From NCBI GenBank assembly GCA_017431785.1, contig JAFRKJ010000071.1, positions 62,001 through 126,000 on the forward strand: a DNA stretch of 64,000 bases, written 5' to 3'. This document shows, piece by piece, positions 32,358 to 39,488 of the stretch. The notes below the pieces were generated by a model, which was not told the origin of the DNA, did no database searches, and saw only the letters and a list, made by a program, of their open reading frames with translations. Within the stretch, counting starts at the first letter, position 1. Each line of letters opens with the position of its first letter. This stretch comes from Bacillota bacterium (GTDB taxonomy: Bacteria > Bacillota > Clostridia > Peptostreptococcales > Anaerovoracaceae). The translations under genes were made by a program, and so were the position numbers.

Positions 32358-33029
32358 TTATTCCTTTTTCTCTTTCACTCCGAGGGCCTTACGCATTCCG
32401 CGCAACCCGCTCTGCACAAAGTAGTTCAGCAGCTGCGGAGACATATCCAGTCGCTTTGCGATTTCCTTTTTCTTTTCATCACTGCTGAAATACTCGACAA
32501 CTACTCTGCGCTGATCCTCAGTGATCTGACTGAGTGCGAAGTTCACGATTCTGATCGTCTCAAGCAGATCCTGATGTTTTATGACCTGCTCAAGCGGATC
32601 CGGGTCAGGATCCACAAGTCCAAATACAGTCTCAGACACAAAGCCCGCCGGGAAAACGTTCTGATTACCGGAGCTGTTGTTCTGACTGTGAACGATCCTG
32701 TCCTCCGCGAACATCAGCGTTCCAAGAAACCATGGCATCGCCATGATATCCTCATCATAGATGCACATACCCGGCTGTATGATTCCGCTGTACGGATGAT
32801 AGCGATAACAACCATCTACATCATGCAGCCTGAGGACTGTACTTCTCGATCCATTGTCATAAACGACATAGCCGTTCTCGTAGACCAACAGGAAGCTTTT
32901 GTCCTCCGTGATCTTGACTTCTACGATCGCTGCGCCTGATTCACGCAGCGCCGCCGGTGTTGGCAGCTTGACCTTGCCTGTCGGAGGTGCTTCCTCAACC
33001 ATTTGCTGTAACGTTCTGAGCGTCTTCAT
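32358..33029 (-). CDS. Sigma-70 region-4-like regulator
   Basis: A 223-residue protein whose C-terminus (about 165-220, with QRRVVVEYFSSDEKKKEIAK and RLDMSPQLLNYFVQSGLRGM) looks like the HTH of sigma-factor region 4. The first 150 residues hold an unrecognised beta-rich domain (FLLVYENGYVVYDNGS). I see no region 2. The start at 33029 has AAAGGAG at proper distance; the frame also opens at 33071. It has its own copy of the repeated promoter motif upstream and a terminator downstream. It is a natural candidate to recognise that motif, but this is inference. Confidence 0.7.
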   Translation of the reverse strand: MKTLRTLQQMVEEAPPTGKVKLPTPAALRESGAAIVEVKITEDKSFLLVYENGYVVYDNGSRSTVLRLHDVDGCYRYHPYSGIIQPGMCIYDEDIMAMPWFLGTLMFAEDRIVHSQNNSSGNQNVFPAGFVSETVFGLVDPDPDPLEQVIKHQDLLETIRIVNFALSQITEDQRRVVVEYFSSDEKKKEIAKRLDMSPQLLNYFVQSGLRGMRKALGVKEKKE

Positions 33030-33194
33030 CACTCTCGCTCCTTTCCGCTTAATAGCAAACGGATGGAACAAAAGCGCACCGACACCCTATACTTCTTTCT
33101 GAACACATCCGCTATGGTGAAAGCAGATTATTCAGGCCGGTATGACCTATATTTTTGAAATCGCCGTCATAAGTGTCGGACCAGGATAAACTGC

Positions 33195-33235
33195 TCTACT
33201 AACTCCAAACGGGATAGCCAAAAATAAAGGGCTTA
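33195..33235 (-). promoter_or_regulatory. Repeated promoter-like motif, copy C (sigma-like gene)
   Basis: Minus strand: TAAGCCCTTTAT, 19 nt ending TTTGG, then AGTTAGTAGA. It is about 165 bp upstream of the sigma-like gene start. The 423-bp gap 33030-33452 otherwise contains only a small terminator-like hairpin at 33262-33284 and no credible gene. Confidence 0.55.
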
Positions 33236-33261
33236 CGTCGCATTCTATAGTTTTGTCAGAA

Positions 33262-33284
33262 TAAAAAATATGCTAAAGCATATT
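33262..33284 (-). terminator. Probable terminator of the HTH regulator gene
   Basis: On the minus strand AATATGC, loop TTTA, GCATATT, then a run of T. The stem is AT-rich but perfect and the T-run follows directly. It lies about 170 bp past the stop of the HTH regulator and before copy C of the promoter motif. Confidence 0.6.
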
Positions 33285-33452
33285 CCCCAGACCTATCAGT
33301 ATTTATTATTTTCCAATCTCATATCGTACAGTAACGGTTTGCATGCAGATGCCAAGCCTTTTTGGGATCTCCCGAGCCTTTGATAAGGCTGATATGAAAT
33401 ACTATTGTTCCTTTCTTTCTTTTTCTCACTATCTGTTATCTCCTTATATGAA

Positions 33453-33962
33453 TCACCTGTTACTTTGTTTTTGCTTTTTTCGTTCCTTATATCTGGCGCA
33501 GCGTATTGCATTACTGCTGCGATCTTTCAGATTATATACAACATCCTGATATGGCAGATTTACTGAAACAGTCACCGTGCTCACATCAAGATCCTTCGCA
33601 ATCTTTTTTATTGCATCTGAGGCATCCAATCCCCCGCCTCCCTCAGACACAGGTTTCGTATAACCGTAAAACAATTCCGCTATCTGACGACTACGTTCTG
33701 TACTCCAGCAGCCGCCGGTAATCAGGATTTTCCTGATCTTTGATGTTGATAGTTTGATCCCAAGGCCTTCCAATTCTTTTGCAAACGCATTTAAACTCTT
33801 GTGATTTGCTTCTTGTCCCGGAATCCAATCCTCCCCAGGCTCTCTAAACTCGTCACCTGCGGCCGGCGGCCGGCAGTCCTCAATACGGTCATCATAAACA
33901 TCACCGTAAAGATCACATATATATTCGATATACTCCCATGATGGATTCTTTTCTTTTCCCAT
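33453..33962 (-). CDS. HTH-containing regulator of the element
   Basis: A 169-residue protein. The N-terminal half (WEYIEYICDLYGDVYDDR) is unrecognised; the C-terminal half contains an HTH-like segment (DAIKKIAKDLDVSTVTVSVN) and a basic tail (SNAIRCARYKERKKQK). The frame opens at 34025, but that ATG lies inside the predicted -35 box. ATG at 33962 has TGAGG 9 nt upstream and is preferred (33977 also possible). It has its own strong promoter and no operon partner, as expected of a regulator. Its target is unknown; an imperfect palindrome in its own promoter hints at autoregulation. Confidence 0.65.
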   Translation of the reverse strand: MGKEKNPSWEYIEYICDLYGDVYDDRIEDCRPPAAGDEFREPGEDWIPGQEANHKSLNAFAKELEGLGIKLSTSKIRKILITGGCWSTERSRQIAELFYGYTKPVSEGGGGLDASDAIKKIAKDLDVSTVTVSVNLPYQDVVYNLKDRSSNAIRCARYKERKKQKQSNR

Positions 33963-33996
33963 TTTCGTGTTCCTCATGTAAAAGATGCGTATATTA

Positions 33997-34025
33997 ATTG
34001 TATTGTGTCTTTTAACACATGTCAA
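33997..34025 (-). promoter_or_regulatory. Sigma-A-type promoter of the HTH regulator
   Basis: Minus strand TTGACA, 17 nt, TACAAT: a near-consensus vegetative promoter ending about 35 bp before the chosen start. The spacer itself contains TGTGT and ACACA as an inverted repeat around TAAAAG, a possible operator. Confidence 0.7.
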
Positions 34026-34070
34026 TTAACACTTATTAAGTAAAAATGAGCACCGTTGCCTACGCTACGC

Positions 34071-34865
34071 TTATAGCCCATATCGCTCAAACAACCTGCA
34101 TAGTATTCCAACATGAATTCCTGCCTCCATTTCAATGGCCGACTCACTCATAATTCCTTGCATGATAGCTCTTATCAAAAGCCATGCATCTTTCCCAAAG
34201 AAGACCTCTTCCACTCCAAATTCTTCAAGTTCATTTTGATACAAAAAATAATCAGTTGCGTATAATTTGCAGATCGATATCCTTCCAAGATGGTTAAAGA
34301 TAAGAGATATCGTTGTTGCAAGCATCTCGACATTCGTTGGAAAGTCGACTCGCTGTATCAAGTCTGTAGCAGTTTTCTTTCCATTACGAAGGACATCAAT
34401 CACAGGTCTATCATTTGCTACACCATAAACAACATCATTCATTGAAAATGATATCTTGTCTGAGAAATGGGTCGCCCCAAGCTGCTTCATCAATTCGACC
34501 TGTGAAGCATGGTATTCCATATACCCTCTGATTTTTGTGTACTTTGATTTGTCCTTCTTCGCTAATTTTTCAATGTCAGCCACATGTGTATATTCATGAA
34601 ATAAGATATAATCCGCATGCAACTCGGGAATATAGAGATCTTTCCATGCTAACAGCGAGTACTTGTCTGTTTCAACGTTATAAAGCACCTGTGCCCAAAC
34701 ACCATATCCCTTAGCATTTGCTTCTTCCATTGTAAGAACTACAGGTTTTCTTTCAACAGCTGGGAATGAATCCAATCCCATGAATTCCATATACTCTTTT
34801 TGAGTACGGTTCAGATATGCATTAAGCGCAAACTTTTCCCTAGCTGTTATTGGTGAATTATTCAT
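34071..34865 (-). CDS. HEYTH metallopeptidase-like protein of the defence operon
   Basis: A 264-residue protein with HEYTH at 90-94 in a helix (ADYILFHEYTHVADIEKL) and a second conserved-looking helix EYHASQVELM (117-126) that could supply the third zinc ligand. This is the layout of small ImmA/gluzincin-like peptidases. There is no signal peptide, so it should be cytoplasmic. It is the last gene of a tight five-gene operon; the upstream gene ends 7 bp before its ATG. Peptidases are found as effectors or activators in several bacterial immune systems, but its role here is inference from context. I do not recognise a named family. Confidence 0.65.
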   Translation of the reverse strand: MNNSPITAREKFALNAYLNRTQKEYMEFMGLDSFPAVERKPVVLTMEEANAKGYGVWAQVLYNVETDKYSLLAWKDLYIPELHADYILFHEYTHVADIEKLAKKDKSKYTKIRGYMEYHASQVELMKQLGATHFSDKISFSMNDVVYGVANDRPVIDVLRNGKKTATDLIQRVDFPTNVEMLATTISLIFNHLGRISICKLYATDYFLYQNELEEFGVEEVFFGKDAWLLIRAIMQGIMSESAIEMEAGIHVGILCRLFERYGL

Positions 34866-34872
34866 ACAAATC

Positions 34873-35502
34873 CTATTCCGTCACAAATGTTCTCAGCGTA
34901 CACTCAGTCTTAAAGTAATGCTTTCCAGTTATAACTTCATCTACTACTATGCGCATATTTGCATCAAGGGATTTATTAGCTGAAATAGATTTTAATCCTT
35001 CACGCAGTTCTTCAACTGGCATGTAGAAGTTGAAGGCTTCCCCCTGATTCAATCGCCTTGGGAACTTTGGCATATAAGAATCAAACGGGGTTCCTTCAGA
35101 TATCATTCCCACAAACACATCACCCTCTTTCTCACCGAAGTTCAAATATATATTATCAACCGTTATTGGTCTTATACCGGCATTCTTCACTGTTATAATC
35201 CACACTGCAATACTATTCACCTCCGGAATGTGACTCAAGCCATATCCAGAGGTTATGTTTGCGTCAATCTTAACCTTCTGTGGCAACCAAAATGCAAAGA
35301 TAGACATCACCAGGGCAACTGCTCCGAATACTGAGCCTGCCCAGCTACCGATAGCACCGATCTTCGTCCAGCGCAATGATTCTGCTGTGAAATCAGTGTT
35401 TGGATCTGCAGGCTGGCATAGTCTTAAAATTGTCCACACGCTAAGACAGATAAGAACCATTGTGGCTGTAATTATTATTGTAATCAGTATCTTCTTTTTC
35501 AT
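34873..35502 (-). CDS. Two-helix membrane protein of the defence operon
   Basis: A 209-residue protein with two N-terminal membrane helices (about 5-27, ILITIIITATMVLICLSVW, and 47-70, IGSWAGSVFGAVALVMSIFA). A beta-rich domain (about 75-209) follows and includes VWIITVKNAGIRPITVDNIY. No catalytic motif is visible. The start lies 2 bp after the HEPN gene stop. The membrane anchor plus soluble domain resembles the effector or sensor layout of membrane-acting defence proteins. I do not recognise the family. Confidence 0.6.
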   Translation of the reverse strand: MKKKILITIIITATMVLICLSVWTILRLCQPADPNTDFTAESLRWTKIGAIGSWAGSVFGAVALVMSIFAFWLPQKVKIDANITSGYGLSHIPEVNSIAVWIITVKNAGIRPITVDNIYLNFGEKEGDVFVGMISEGTPFDSYMPKFPRRLNQGEAFNFYMPVEELREGLKSISANKSLDANMRIVVDEVITGKHYFKTECTLRTFVTE

Positions 35503-35504
35503 GT

Positions 35505-36320
35505 TTATGTTACGGGATTCCTCGGAACAACAACACAGACATCCAGCATCTTATGCAGATATGAGATTTGTGTCAAAATATCAACAGCATCATTCACGTT
35601 TATATCCCACCTAATCCGCAATTCGTGAGCTGTAACGTTTCTTACTAGGTGAATCACTCCGCATAACATTTCTTTCAGTCCATTCTGCTGATTCTTTTCT
35701 GATTCTGTTCTCAAACTGTTGAATGCAATGTGTGGATCTCGTATCGAAAATGCAGTCTGAAATAATTCTGTACCATCAGCTTCTAAGCCAGACATTTCTC
35801 TCACACGATCGCAAAGGCTCTTTGCTGCTTCATGGACAGCATGGAAATAATCCTCCGCGAGCAGTTCTTCTTTACAACAGTTCAAAACATATTGATGCGC
35901 ATGATATCCTGCCAGTTGATCTCGCAATTGTTTCGTTCTTCTTCGAACTTCCGAAAGTCTTTCAGCCTCTGTTATCCGATAGAACTTTCCATCATCACGA
36001 ATTTCAACTCCAACAAACATGAGCACTCTGTTGACTTCAAGCCGCATCCTCTCATATCGATCATGATTTTGCAATCCTTGTGCAGGCTCGAAACAATGTT
36101 GCAAGAATGCATATACTGCATTGGTCGACTTATCATTATTGGCACTTGCACAAAAAGCATTGTGTAACCGTTTCCACTTGGTTAATCCCGGATCTGGATC
36201 TGGTATTCTGCATTGAGCGAGATGGTGCCCAATTTCAGAACCTGTAAAACCATTACCCGTATCCCCAAGCACTTTCGCAATCTGCTCAATTTGTGGTTGT
36301 GATAATGCTGGCAACCCCAT
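35505..36320 (-). CDS. TIGR02391/HEPN abortive-infection-type protein
   Basis: A 271-residue protein. The C-terminal part matches the TIGR02391 (Ymh/HEPN Abi) pattern: YFHAVHEAAKSLCDRVREMS, NSLRTESEKNQQNG, then RNVTAHELR. In the last, Arg227 and His232 form the R-x4-H motif of HEPN ribonucleases. Such proteins usually cut RNA on activation. I chose ATG at 36320, with GGGAGG 8 nt upstream; GTG at 36329 and ATG at 36326 are also in frame but abut the ribosome site. The gene begins just past the ThsA-like stop and is followed by the membrane protein. Confidence 0.78.
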   Translation of the reverse strand: MGLPALSQPQIEQIAKVLGDTGNGFTGSEIGHHLAQCRIPDPDPGLTKWKRLHNAFCASANNDKSTNAVYAFLQHCFEPAQGLQNHDRYERMRLEVNRVLMFVGVEIRDDGKFYRITEAERLSEVRRRTKQLRDQLAGYHAHQYVLNCCKEELLAEDYFHAVHEAAKSLCDRVREMSGLEADGTELFQTAFSIRDPHIAFNSLRTESEKNQQNGLKEMLCGVIHLVRNVTAHELRIRWDINVNDAVDILTQISYLHKMLDVCVVVPRNPVT

Positions 36321-36325
36321 GGCCA

Positions 36326-37195
36326 TCACCTCCCGGGAATTGATTTGAAGCTATCCTTGTATTCATAGAGCTGAAGTTCTTTCGCATTATCATTAATAAC
36401 AACTTTTAGTGTTGACTTAAACTCTAGATCGCTGCTGTTTAACGTACACAACATGCATCGAAGAAGGGAATCGTTGCTTTGACTCGCCCCTTCAAATCGG
36501 GCAATTCCCGATCCTAGCAAGGGCAATACTACATCATTGTAAACATACATACCGTTAATCTGATCCCACATTTCTCGCAGGGTTCTTTCATATTCAGGCA
36601 TTGATGTATAAGCCTTAACTGTGCCGTTTACCTTCTTCTGTTTTGTGAGTGCTACCATTAGATAAGTACTTTCATCAACAGAGCTGTCATATCTAATCAC
36701 TGTGCCAAGCGGAAAATCATACAGGCCATCTTCGTCCTTATCAATCCCAAGTATCTTCGCCTTTTCTTCAACAACTTTCTCTATCTCATCTTTTTTTCCG
36801 TGCTCTAATATGAGCTGACCATGAAGAGATTTTTTTGAAATGATTACATCATCTACCCTCGTATCGAAATGAGAATCACAGCCTATGACTTTATATCCAG
36901 CATAGTCAAATATATTACCAGTAGATATTTCAACCGCTGTAGCGCCAATTGTAAGCTCAATTGAATCCTTAAATATGCGCCCAATGGCTATATATGTAAG
37001 GAAATAGGCAATAGCAAATACCACAAGAACAACAACTAGACTGAGTTTCCAGCTGTTTGTTACTCCTTCCAAAGAAACACCTATGATTGATAATACGGTG
37101 GAAACTAGCCCAATTAATGACCCGGATATTATTGCGCTGTCTCTACTTCTTGCGGATAGCCCGTTGAACCATTTCCAAATATTTTTCATTATCAT
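36326..37195 (-). CDS. thsA: ThsA-like Thoeris effector (two membrane helices + macro domain)
   Basis: A 289-residue protein with two membrane helices at about 20-41 and 49-71 followed by a macro-like domain (about 83-285). Key segments are STGNIFDYAGYKVIGCD (91-107), the DTRVDD/SLHGQLI region, and LPLLGSGIARFEG (224-236). This matches the ThsA_Macro family (formerly DUF6430). In type II Thoeris the macro domain senses a nucleotide signal made by the TIR partner and the membrane part is thought to kill the cell. Its ATG overlaps the TIR gene stop as TAATG. The family call rests on motif memory plus the TIR partner. Confidence 0.8.
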   Translation of the reverse strand: MIMKNIWKWFNGLSARSRDSAIISGSLIGLVSTVLSIIGVSLEGVTNSWKLSLVVVLVVFAIAYFLTYIAIGRIFKDSIELTIGATAVEISTGNIFDYAGYKVIGCDSHFDTRVDDVIISKKSLHGQLILEHGKKDEIEKVVEEKAKILGIDKDEDGLYDFPLGTVIRYDSSVDESTYLMVALTKQKKVNGTVKAYTSMPEYERTLREMWDQINGMYVYNDVVLPLLGSGIARFEGASQSNDSLLRCMLCTLNSSDLEFKSTLKVVINDNAKELQLYEYKDSFKSIPGR

Positions 37196-37701
37196 TAACC
37201 ATCAATTGCATTCGCAATTCCATTGTAGTCCCAGTAATTCTTCCCGTCTGTACCCCGATACCACATTTTCTGATGTGTTCCCTTCCATCGCACTGCCTCC
37301 GGACAGAGACTGCGATCTACAGAGCCACTGTTATAAAGAACCACAATCTTCAAATTGTCTGCAACGGCTTTATCACATTCGAATTTGATGAAGGAACGGT
37401 AATCAACAGTATATCCTCGGCCGCAAGAATACGTATGGCTATTGTAGCTTCCACATAGCTGGCATCCGCCTTTGGTAACTGTATCGGTATGATCACCCAC
37501 AATGAGGATGAATTTATAGGATTGATCGAGCCGATTTCTAAGAGATTTTTTTATGGAACACGCAAGGCTGTCATCATTAGATTGTTGGATATCATGCGCA
37601 TCTTTAAAATAAATATAGCCATTTCTTCTCATCCAATAAAGGCAGTCAACAGCTCCCTTATCATGGTCAAAGTCTGCGGCAATGTACGTATAGTCCTTCA
37701 T
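37195..37701 (-). CDS. thsB: ThsB-like TIR-domain protein
   Basis: A 168-residue single TIR-like domain. The first strand YIAADFDHDKGA (6-17), the strand and loop FILIVGDHTDTV (64-75), and Glu108 in FIKFECDKAVADNLKIVVLY fit ThsB-type TIR proteins. Glu108 takes the place of the catalytic glutamate. On phage infection such proteins convert NAD to a signalling molecule that triggers ThsA. Between strand and catalytic helix is a Cys-rich insert (Cys80, Cys83, Cys93), perhaps metal-binding. It is the first gene of the operon, with GGGAG 13 nt before the ATG, a long spacing. Confidence 0.8.
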   Translation of the reverse strand: MKDYTYIAADFDHDKGAVDCLYWMRRNGYIYFKDAHDIQQSNDDSLACSIKKSLRNRLDQSYKFILIVGDHTDTVTKGGCQLCGSYNSHTYSCGRGYTVDYRSFIKFECDKAVADNLKIVVLYNSGSVDRSLCPEAVRWKGTHQKMWYRGTDGKNYWDYNGIANAIDG

Positions 37702-37850
37702 AGTATTATTTCATCTCCCTTCGTTAATAGTCTACGTGAAATTCAATTCCACTTCGTTCTTCATGACATCAATTCTATGGATTGCACAGCGGCATTAATA
37801 AATGTCGCAATCAGCAACATTGGCTATAATTCTTAATGAAATCGATAATA

Positions 37851-37879
37851 ATTATATCACGAAAAACCCGTTCTGTCTA
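37851..37879 (-). promoter_or_regulatory. Promoter of the Thoeris-like operon
   Basis: Minus strand TAGACA, 17 nt, TATAAT. The predicted start point is about 145 bp upstream of the TIR gene, so there is a long leader. Its -35 box directly abuts the -35 box of the plus-strand promoter of the neighbouring gene, together reading TGTCTATTGACA. Confidence 0.6.
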
Positions 37880-37909
37880 TTGACATGCATCCATGTTGTC
37901 TGTTATTAT
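37880..37909 (+). promoter_or_regulatory. Promoter of the XRE-dehydrogenase gene
   Basis: TTGACA, 18 nt, TATTAT on the plus strand. The predicted start is about 75 bp upstream of the TTG start codon. It is back-to-back with the defence-operon promoter, so one bound protein could affect both. Confidence 0.65.
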
Positions 37910-37946
37910 GTTAATGTTTTATTGGCTCTTCAAATCGAGCATGCAG

Positions 37947-37963
37947 TGTTGCTATTAGCAACA
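37947..37963 (+). promoter_or_regulatory. Perfect 8+1+8 palindrome in the leader; candidate operator
   Basis: TGTTGCTA-T-TAGCAACA lies between the predicted transcription start and the ribosome binding site of the XRE-dehydrogenase gene. A half site AGCAACATT recurs at 37813-37821, in the leader of the divergent defence operon. The downstream gene encodes an XRE-type HTH, so autoregulation is plausible. Confidence 0.5.
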
Positions 37964-37991
37964 TTTAACAGCGGTACAGAAAGGATCTATT

Positions 37992-39488
37992 TTGAAGAAA
38001 CTATCCCTCAATCTCCTTGCCGAGACGGTTGTCTCCCAGCGCAAGGCTAGGAAGATCACACAAGTCCAGTTATCCCAGATGACTGGTATCAATCGATCCA
38101 TCCTATCCAGGCTTGAATCAGAAGATTACATGCCTTCTGTAGATCAGTTACAGGCGCTTTCTGAAGTGCTGGATTTCAATCCTGCAGACCTGTTCATCCC
38201 ATCTGAAGTGGCTGCCCCTATGGTAGACAAGAAATACAATATCGCTGTGGCAGGCACCGGTTACGTTGGTCTTTCTCTTTCAGTTCTCCTTGCTCAGCAC
38301 AATCATGTGACCGCGGTCGATATCATACCGGAGAAGGTCGAAAAACTAAACGCATATATCTCCCCTATTCAGGACGAATATATCGAGAAGTATTTATCTC
38401 AGGCAAAATCTGGAGAGCGCGAGTTGGATCTTACAGCCACAACGGATGGTGCTGCCGCTTATGCAGATACCGATTATATCATCATTGCTGCTCCAACCAA
38501 TTATGATCCGAAAAGTAACTATTTCGACTGCTCTGCTGTCGAGTCGGTAATCGAACTCATTCTTGCATCAACAGAAGCAAGAACTACCAAGCCAACAATC
38601 GTCATCAAGTCAACGATTCCTGTCGGATACACAGAGGAAATTCGTCGCAAATATAACGCCAATAACATCATATTCAGCCCGGAATTCTTACGTGAGTCAA
38701 AGGCCCTGTATGACAATCTCTATCCGAGTAGGATCATCGTAGGCTGTGATGAGGCTACCGAAGACGCAGCTCATACTTTTGCTACCCTTCTGCAGCAAGG
38801 AGCAATCAAACAGAATATTGAAACACTGTTCATGGGATTTACAGAAGCCGAAGCAACAAAGCTTTTTGTAAACACATATCTGGCTCTCCGGGTCTCATAC
38901 TTTAACGAGCTGGATACCTATGCCGAAGTCAAAGGTCTCCAGACAGCACCAATCATCAAAGGCGTCTGTTTAGATCCGAGAGTCGGTGATTACTATAACA
39001 ACCCTTCCTTTGGTTATGGTGGGTACTGTCTGCCTAAGGATACAAAGCAGCTCCTGGCCAACTATAGCAGCGTCCCGCAGAATATGATGACCGCAATCGT
39101 TGAAAGCAATCGCACTAGAAAGGATTTCATAGCGGACAGAGTACTTCAGATGGCAGGCTATTATAGCTACACCGATAATGGGTACGACAGTAGTCGTGAG
39201 CATCCAGTTACTGTTGGTGTATACAGACTTACAATGAAGTCTAACTCAGATAATTTTAGACAATCTTCAATACAAGGAGTTATGAAAAGAATCAAAGCAA
39301 AAGGCGCTTCTGTCATAATATATGAGCCTACACTTGAGAACGGGAGCACCTTTTTTGGAAGTAAAATCGAAAATGATTTGAAAAAGTTTAAGAAGATATG
39401 CAATTGTATAATTGCAAACAGATACGATCCTGTTTTAGAGGATGTAAAGGAAAAGGTATATACACGAGATTTATTTCAACGAGATTGA
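37992..39488 (+). CDS. XRE-HTH fused to nucleotide-sugar (UDP-glucose-type) dehydrogenase
   Basis: A 498-residue fusion. Residues 1-70 form a complete XRE helix-turn-helix ([34 protein letters not shown]). Residues 82-480 form a UDP-glucose/UDP-ManNAc-type dehydrogenase with NAD site [11 protein letters not shown] (GTGYVG at 88-93), the [12 protein letters not shown] segment, and the catalytic Cys346 in [14 protein letters not shown]. It should oxidise a UDP-hexose to the uronate for capsule synthesis. The start is TTG with AAAGGA upstream. It is the only plus-strand gene of the capsule locus. The fused DNA-binding domain suggests an enzyme that also reports on sugar-nucleotide supply by controlling transcription. 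Confidence 0.9.

Follow-up and report, generated by a model that had tools for sequence, protein, structure and literature searches.

Five consecutive open reading frames (ORFs) lie on the minus strand, from 37701 down to 34071, of a 64,000-nucleotide stretch of an Anaerovoracaceae (Bacillota) genome (hereafter the window; contig JAFRKJ010000071.1, positions 62,001 to 126,000, in a 96-contig draft). They encode a type II Thoeris pair (ThsB and ThsA, genes 1 and 2), a HEPN protein (gene 3), a membrane protein (gene 4), and a candidate HExxH metallopeptidase (gene 5), and we regard them as a likely composite, or stacked, operon in which separate defence modules have been joined, next to an integrative and conjugative element (ICE). 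We favor this reading because relatives of genes 3 and 5 are missing from all 15 other ThsA loci compared, because the gene 5 loci compared encode no other protein of the operon, because relatives of both genes adjoin unrelated defence genes or mobile elements, and because the Thoeris pair itself looks reshuffled. Genes 3 and 5 are thus independently distributed in the samples examined, with conserved motifs in each.

Organization of the operon

The features of the operon are as follows:
37195..37701, minus strand: thsB, 168 residues, TIR-like synthase of the type II Thoeris signal; PADLOC PDLC00427 (ThsB), 2.9e-64
36326..37195, minus strand: thsA, two N-terminal hydrophobic segments and a macro domain, 289 residues; PADLOC PDLC00413, 3.1e-61
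35505..36329, minus strand: HEPN protein (Ymh/TIGR02391 family) that also has an N-terminal domain, 274 residues; GTG start at 36329, alternative ATG at 36326
34873..35502, minus strand: orphan membrane protein, 209 residues; a pair of hydrophobic segments at the N terminus, followed by about 135 residues of soluble domain
34071..34865, minus strand: HExxH candidate metallopeptidase, 264 residues; HEYTH at residues 90-94 and a conserved E[YF]HAxQ at 117
37851..37879, minus strand: promoter-like site of the operon, TAGACA-17-TATAAT with TG before the second hexamer; a consensus match only

An earlier sequence-only reading of this DNA had described five tightly packed minus-strand genes at the same coordinates, and this arrangement was confirmed, with junctions of -1 bp (ThsB/ThsA), -4 bp (ThsA/HEPN), +2 bp (HEPN/membrane protein), and +7 bp (membrane protein/HExxH). 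Because 22 of the 49 same-strand junctions of the window fall within -30 to +8 bp and are equally tight, four such junctions in succession have a chance expectation of about 4%, and spacing alone is therefore weak evidence for a functional unit. A promoter-like site lies upstream of the row at 37879-37851, although such sites number 23 in the 5.1-kb region, against 15.6 expected (standard deviation 4.1). The next minus-strand gene, an ORF at 33453-34025 (second start at 33986), begins 45 bp beyond gene 5, with a separate promoter-like site at 34025-33997. The five genes are probably co-transcribed.

Recurrence at other ThsA loci

ThsA_Macro proteins were found in 5 of 393 genomes in a draw at the level of the order and in 10 of 391 at the level of the class, the genome of the window being counted in each. 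The 15 other loci compared comprise four from the first draw, nine from the second, and two on plasmids. ORFs of at least 70 residues around each ThsA gene were collected with a simple script and compared by blastp with the five operon proteins (E<=0.1). None of the 15 loci, the flanks of several of which end at contig ends (chiefly L055, with 3 kb, and L063), encodes a relative of gene 3 or gene 5, and for gene 4 there was a single 46-residue match (E 0.03), taken as noise. The sequence-only reading had proposed looking for the same gene order in other genomes, and it did not recur in these loci; the last three genes are absent from the relatives compared, an outcome that the same reading had named as speaking against its proposal. 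Its proposal of an extended Thoeris operon stands insofar as the pair is probably co-transcribed with three further genes, but not insofar as these genes were held to be part of Thoeris.

An integrated system, in which the HEPN, membrane, and HExxH proteins would act as effectors or regulators under the ThsB signal, accordingly appears improbable to us. In its favor, all five genes share a strand and a promoter-like site, with only -1 to +7 bp at the junctions, and other nuclease-like genes do lie downstream in L028, the locus of a close ThsA relative; the absence of gene 3 and gene 5 relatives from every other ThsA locus compared and the association of both genes with unrelated systems elsewhere argue against it.

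Several points weigh against the composite reading. All four operon junctions are tight enough for translational coupling, and non-recurrence elsewhere is compatible with functional cross-talk within the window operon. The samples are small, with only four and nine other ThsA genomes among 393 and 391, such that a rare five-gene lineage could be missed. Gene 4 is without relatives, so nothing marks it as independent. Moreover, the genes downstream of ThsA/ThsB in L028 encode a member of the PBECR4 nuclease family (3.1e-39), a protein with the motif RNKSAH (HEPN-like by eye, with no family match), and an Mrr-type restriction protein (1.2e-18). Although blastp relates none of the three to gene 3, they indicate that accessory nucleases do turn up next to Thoeris, though not of the gene 3 or gene 5 types, and the ThsA lineage of the window could favor nuclease partners.

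A further gene at L027:7821-8498 resembles by eye the PBECR4 gene at L028:4838-5506, and both follow a ThsA/ThsB pair; a PBECR4-type gene is possibly a true accessory gene of this Thoeris lineage.

Among plasmid records, no accession was common to the ThsA and HEPN matches listed (60 of 77 and 60 of 104, respectively, compared by eye). The annotation of a ThsA-like region in Klebsiella (L087), which is outside the 15 loci, shows no HEPN or TIR label. A HEPN locus in Agrobacterium was considered as Thoeris and rejected, its TIR-domain gene lying about 5 kb away on the opposite strand, with no annotated macro-domain gene in the stretch. Literature searches, judged from titles and abstract openings, brought up no description of the five-gene arrangement or of the HExxH family. 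Genes 1-3 are of known kinds; no other locus read combines them with genes 4 and 5.

The HEPN protein and its contexts

The assignment of gene 3 to the TIGR02391/HEPN group, already made by the sequence-only reading, was borne out by Pfam Hypoth_Ymh PF09509 (1.6e-38) and TIGR02391 (1.8e-32). A match unforeseen there was the PADLOC model PD-Lambda-3_B (PDLC03987), which aligned at 1.3e-63 over residues 6-265, including the N-terminal domain. The RX4H motif of the protein, RNVTAH at residue 230, is kept in all eight sequences checked (own included), and the protein is a probable ribonuclease. According to the excerpt of a HEPN survey, Ymh proteins occur as solos, in fusions, and in restriction-modification operons (PMC3710099).

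The PADLOC match raises the alternative that the Thoeris pair is followed by a PD-Lambda-3-like system, in which the HEPN protein and one neighbor would form a small downstream system of their own. PD-lambda-3 is termed an abortive infection system in the portion of one source consulted (PMC13190303), and gene 3 shares with it the component B match and the RX4H motif. It differs in its position behind Thoeris and in the missing component A: of eight ORFs searched from 32358 to 39488, none matched a PADLOC model named PD-Lambda-3_A. An excerpted list places PD-lambda-3 under PD(D/E)XK nucleases (PMC10952713), and family searches brought out no neighbor of that type; we consider this alternative very unlikely.

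The distribution of gene 3, whose relatives include some within an ICE and prophages, is in keeping with an independent mobile module. Of 364 genomes of the order, four carry it, own included. One relative lies 2 bp after AbiEi-AbiEii (L084), another is near transfer genes whose VirB4-like protein is 58% identical to that of the window (L085), and the third is a broken copy (L086). On plasmids, tblastn returned 104 records with relatives, eight regions of which were read. In two of these regions the relative directly precedes a PADLOC-confirmed defence gene, namely Shedu SduA (48 bp) and Hachiman hamA (75 bp), and in a third it follows another HEPN gene by 99 bp. Two relatives adjoin annotated restriction endonuclease genes, one overlapping a type I gene and the other lying 20 bp before its neighbor, about 4 kb from brxL; these labels are those of the records, and PADLOC gave no match for one and a weak methyltransferase match for the other. 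A sixth overlaps a hypothetical gene without a PADLOC match, and the remaining two stand alone, one of them with mazF-type genes about 300 bp further on. In addition, gene 3 is carried by seven Streptococcus or Lactococcus phage records.

The HExxH protein and its contexts

Gene 5 falls below every curated Pfam and NCBIfam cut-off, has no match in PADLOC or PHROGs, and reached at best an E value of 0.52 in a profile search of the PDB. Its family is nevertheless marked by HE[FY]TH and E[YF]HAxQ, present in all 15 copies checked (own included; four alike) and also in a nine-row alignment (A2). The conserved glutamate, 22-26 residues past the second histidine of HExxH, would serve as the third metal ligand. 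The protein thus shares HExxH and a downstream glutamate with the HExxH metallopeptidases (zincins) and differs from them in matching no named family; ImmA/IrrE peptidases were considered alongside them. Because the peak test finds no hydrophobic segment, the protein is expected to be cytoplasmic.

In a set of 100 related genomes, gene 5 was found in two, namely the genome of the window and G079. A draw of 297 genomes listed four, two of which (G290 and G116) were rejected, being partial matches in long frames with no HExxH-type relative by eye. Scanning genome contigs with a three-row gene 5 alignment yielded 10 loci (L010-L019). Viral contigs added first L020 and L021 and then L075-L079; the contigs labelled L076 and L078 had already been met as L020 and L021. 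With single-protein queries, which reach close relatives only, none of genes 2, 3, and 5 and the ORF at 32358-33071 was confirmed in viral contigs, and plasmid tblastn gave no match for gene 5, its relative at L020, or the ORF at 33453-33986. No relative of the other four operon proteins is encoded at the gene 5 loci L004, L007, L010-L021, L075, L077, and L079. Since the relatives occupy varied contexts without these proteins, gene 5 appears to be mobile by itself.

The gene directly ahead of gene 5, on the same strand, is a defence gene in three cases (the window, L010, and L011) and a broken defence gene in L012. In L011, a Lachnospiraceae metagenome-assembled genome, a relative (33% identity) ends a qatB-qatC-qatD row, with an ATGA overlap with qatD; the terminal HExxH gene is placed as in the window, whereas the operon in front of it is Qat instead of Thoeris. 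In L010 (the contig of L003/L007), the relative lies 127 bp after a CHAT gene that also matches PADLOC PDC-S66, and in L012 it follows a truncated hsdM (HsdM_N). The HExxH gene of L011 is itself followed by a gene at L011:11193-11852 that is related to the window ORF at 33453-34025 (29%, 1.5e-12), hinting at a common cargo site. Neither 33453-33986 of the window nor L011:11193-11852 has a family match of weight, and both look HTH-like (helix-turn-helix) by eye.

Elsewhere, relatives of gene 5 come after recombinase genes (L004 and L014-L017; the two checked are of the phage integrase family, and the set presumably resembles Tn554), 54-63 bp after a gene for a coupling protein with a relative in the window (L018), amid what look by eye like prophage genes (L019/L021 and L020), and alone on viral contigs (L075 and L077). 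One stands beside a large gene that by eye is tape-measure-like, with AriA/AriB homologues about 3 kb off on the opposite strand (L079), and one has no clear partner (L013). At L004 and L014-L017, which are four Lachnospiraceae-type contigs and one phage record, a 247-residue HExxH protein recurs with equal blast score and has probably spread recently.

Two proposals address what gene 5 might do. The first concerns this gene only and is compatible with a composite operon: rather than a defence gene, gene 5 may be a fitness or counter-defence gene of mobile elements that has come to lie at the end of the row by chance, for instance one whose protease clears a repressor or restriction protein of the host. 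In favor of this role are its relatives in prophage surroundings (L020, L019/L021, and L079), on viral contigs (L075 and L077), next to a gene for conjugation (L018), and after recombinase genes (L004 and L014-L017), all with no defence partner directly ahead, but the overlap with qatD, the position after CHAT, and the place behind the Thoeris row speak against it, and on balance we hold it to be a real, though minority, possibility. In the second, more speculative and somewhat less probable in our view, the HExxH protein would be a general bolt-on, a mobile intracellular protease placed at the 3' end of unrelated Clostridia defence operons (Thoeris, Qat in L011, and CHAT in L010) with a common job, for example cleaving the effector so as to activate it, license it, or shut it off. 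The Ymh-HEPN protein would then be a second such promiscuous module.

The Thoeris pair

Genes 1 and 2, read earlier as type II Thoeris from a TIR protein and a two-helix macro protein, form, to judge from their sequences, a complete type II (transmembrane-macro, TM-macro) pair. In addition to the PADLOC matches given above, ThsB scored 22.7 bits with Pfam PF08937 (cut-off 21.2), and ThsA matched Pfam ThsA_Macro PF20016 at 3.1e-35. The group to which this ThsB belongs carries a Cys-rich insert (GGCQLC...SC), and the glutamate of its KFECDKA segment, aligned in all eight ThsB sequences, would be the catalytic residue; in TM-macro systems, an active-site tyrosine is reported in three subfamilies of ThsB (excerpt of PMC11204291). 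ThsA has hydrophobic peaks at residues 22-40 and 53-71, its FDTxxDD and GSGI-like segments align with those of other ThsA proteins, and the solved ThsA macro domains 9uuz, 8r66, 8v6q, and 8v6s match it at 4.4e-23 to 9e-19. With its TIR ThsB and its ThsA bearing N-terminal hydrophobic segments and a ThsA_Macro domain, the pair resembles type II Thoeris, for example that of E. coli CFT073 (same excerpt), from which it differs in the three additional genes downstream.

The nearest relatives of the two proteins do not coincide. Those of ThsA are in L027, L028, and L063 (51-53% identity). In the first two (52-53%), the gene after ThsA encodes a ThsB of the PADLOC subgroup PDLC00421 (5.1e-72 and 4.1e-72), which resembles the ThsB of the window at profile level only (PDLC00427, 2.6e-8 and 4e-8); in L063, where the contig stops 285 bp upstream of ThsA, no TIR gene was seen. 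The nearest ThsB relatives (58% in L058, 52% in L055, and 47-48% in four more) are all at other ThsA loci, with ThsA partners that share no more than 32% identity with the ThsA of the window, and all six have ThsA first, in contrast to the ThsB-ThsA order here. Given these mismatched relatives and the reversed order, the pair may have been reshuffled, to judge from the few loci compared.

Variation among the related loci includes a Peptidase_S24 (LexA-type) protein (L058:5848-6297, 3.3e-29) encoded between ThsA and ThsB and a 371-residue ThsA_Macro protein (L029:7397-8512) whose N-terminal part has by eye no evident membrane segment and whose gene adjoins that of a ThsB 47% identical to the one in the window.

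The membrane protein

Gene 4 has hydrophobic peaks at residues 5-23 and about 48-73. It lies below every curated Pfam and NCBIfam cut-off and has no match in PADLOC or PHROGs; in the draw of 393 genomes of the order it occurs in its own genome only, and no relatives were found in plasmids (tblastn) or, by single-protein query, in viral contigs.

Proposed mechanism

In the composite operon that we favor, ThsB would sense infection and make an ADP-ribose-type signal from NAD+, as described for its relatives. Histidine adenine dinucleotide is the signal suggested for one TM-macro Thoeris class in the excerpted source (PMC11204291). By analogy, binding of the signal to the ThsA macro domain could lead to oligomerization and clustering of the membrane helices, by which the infected cell would be stopped. 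The HEPN gene would be an independent mobile defence module, probably encoding a ribonuclease and serving as a second abortive-infection effector, that joined the Thoeris promoter as relatives of gene 3 join others. Gene 5 would likewise have been added independently as a mobile gene, and its product is probably a cytoplasmic metallopeptidase. We infer these enzyme activities, together with the lack of a signal common to the modules.

Flanking regions

The region at 67-33071 of the window, like L065, has the content of an ICE, with a relaxase, TraG/VirD4-type proteins, a RepA_N protein, a topoisomerase, and a SpaA/thioester adhesin. At its far end, four related serine recombinase genes stand in tandem. 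The operon may be cargo of this element or lie just outside it. On the other side, a divergent gene (37992-39488) encodes an HTH domain fused to a UDP-glucose (nucleotide sugar) dehydrogenase, possibly an enzyme-regulator, of which a full-length relative (68% identical) exists in another genome (G024, L033). In the gap between the operon and this gene, a 17-base palindrome, TGTTGCTAATAGCAACA, occurs in two copies 144 bp apart (37803-37819, with three mismatches, and 37947-37963). Across the window it gave three matches at two places, against 0.14 expected, and genome-wide it showed no enrichment, with 12 matches at 11 places and 12 for the reversed control. The HTH protein may control both the operon and its own gene.

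Implications

Defence operons may grow when a known signaling pair gains mobile genes under one promoter, and gene neighborhood and tight spacing can, by themselves, overstate functional unity. The unnamed HExxH family is present in Clostridia, on phage contigs, and on recombinase-bearing elements, and in three loci its genes come after defence genes of different kinds. The family is directly testable and merits work more than the operon itself does.

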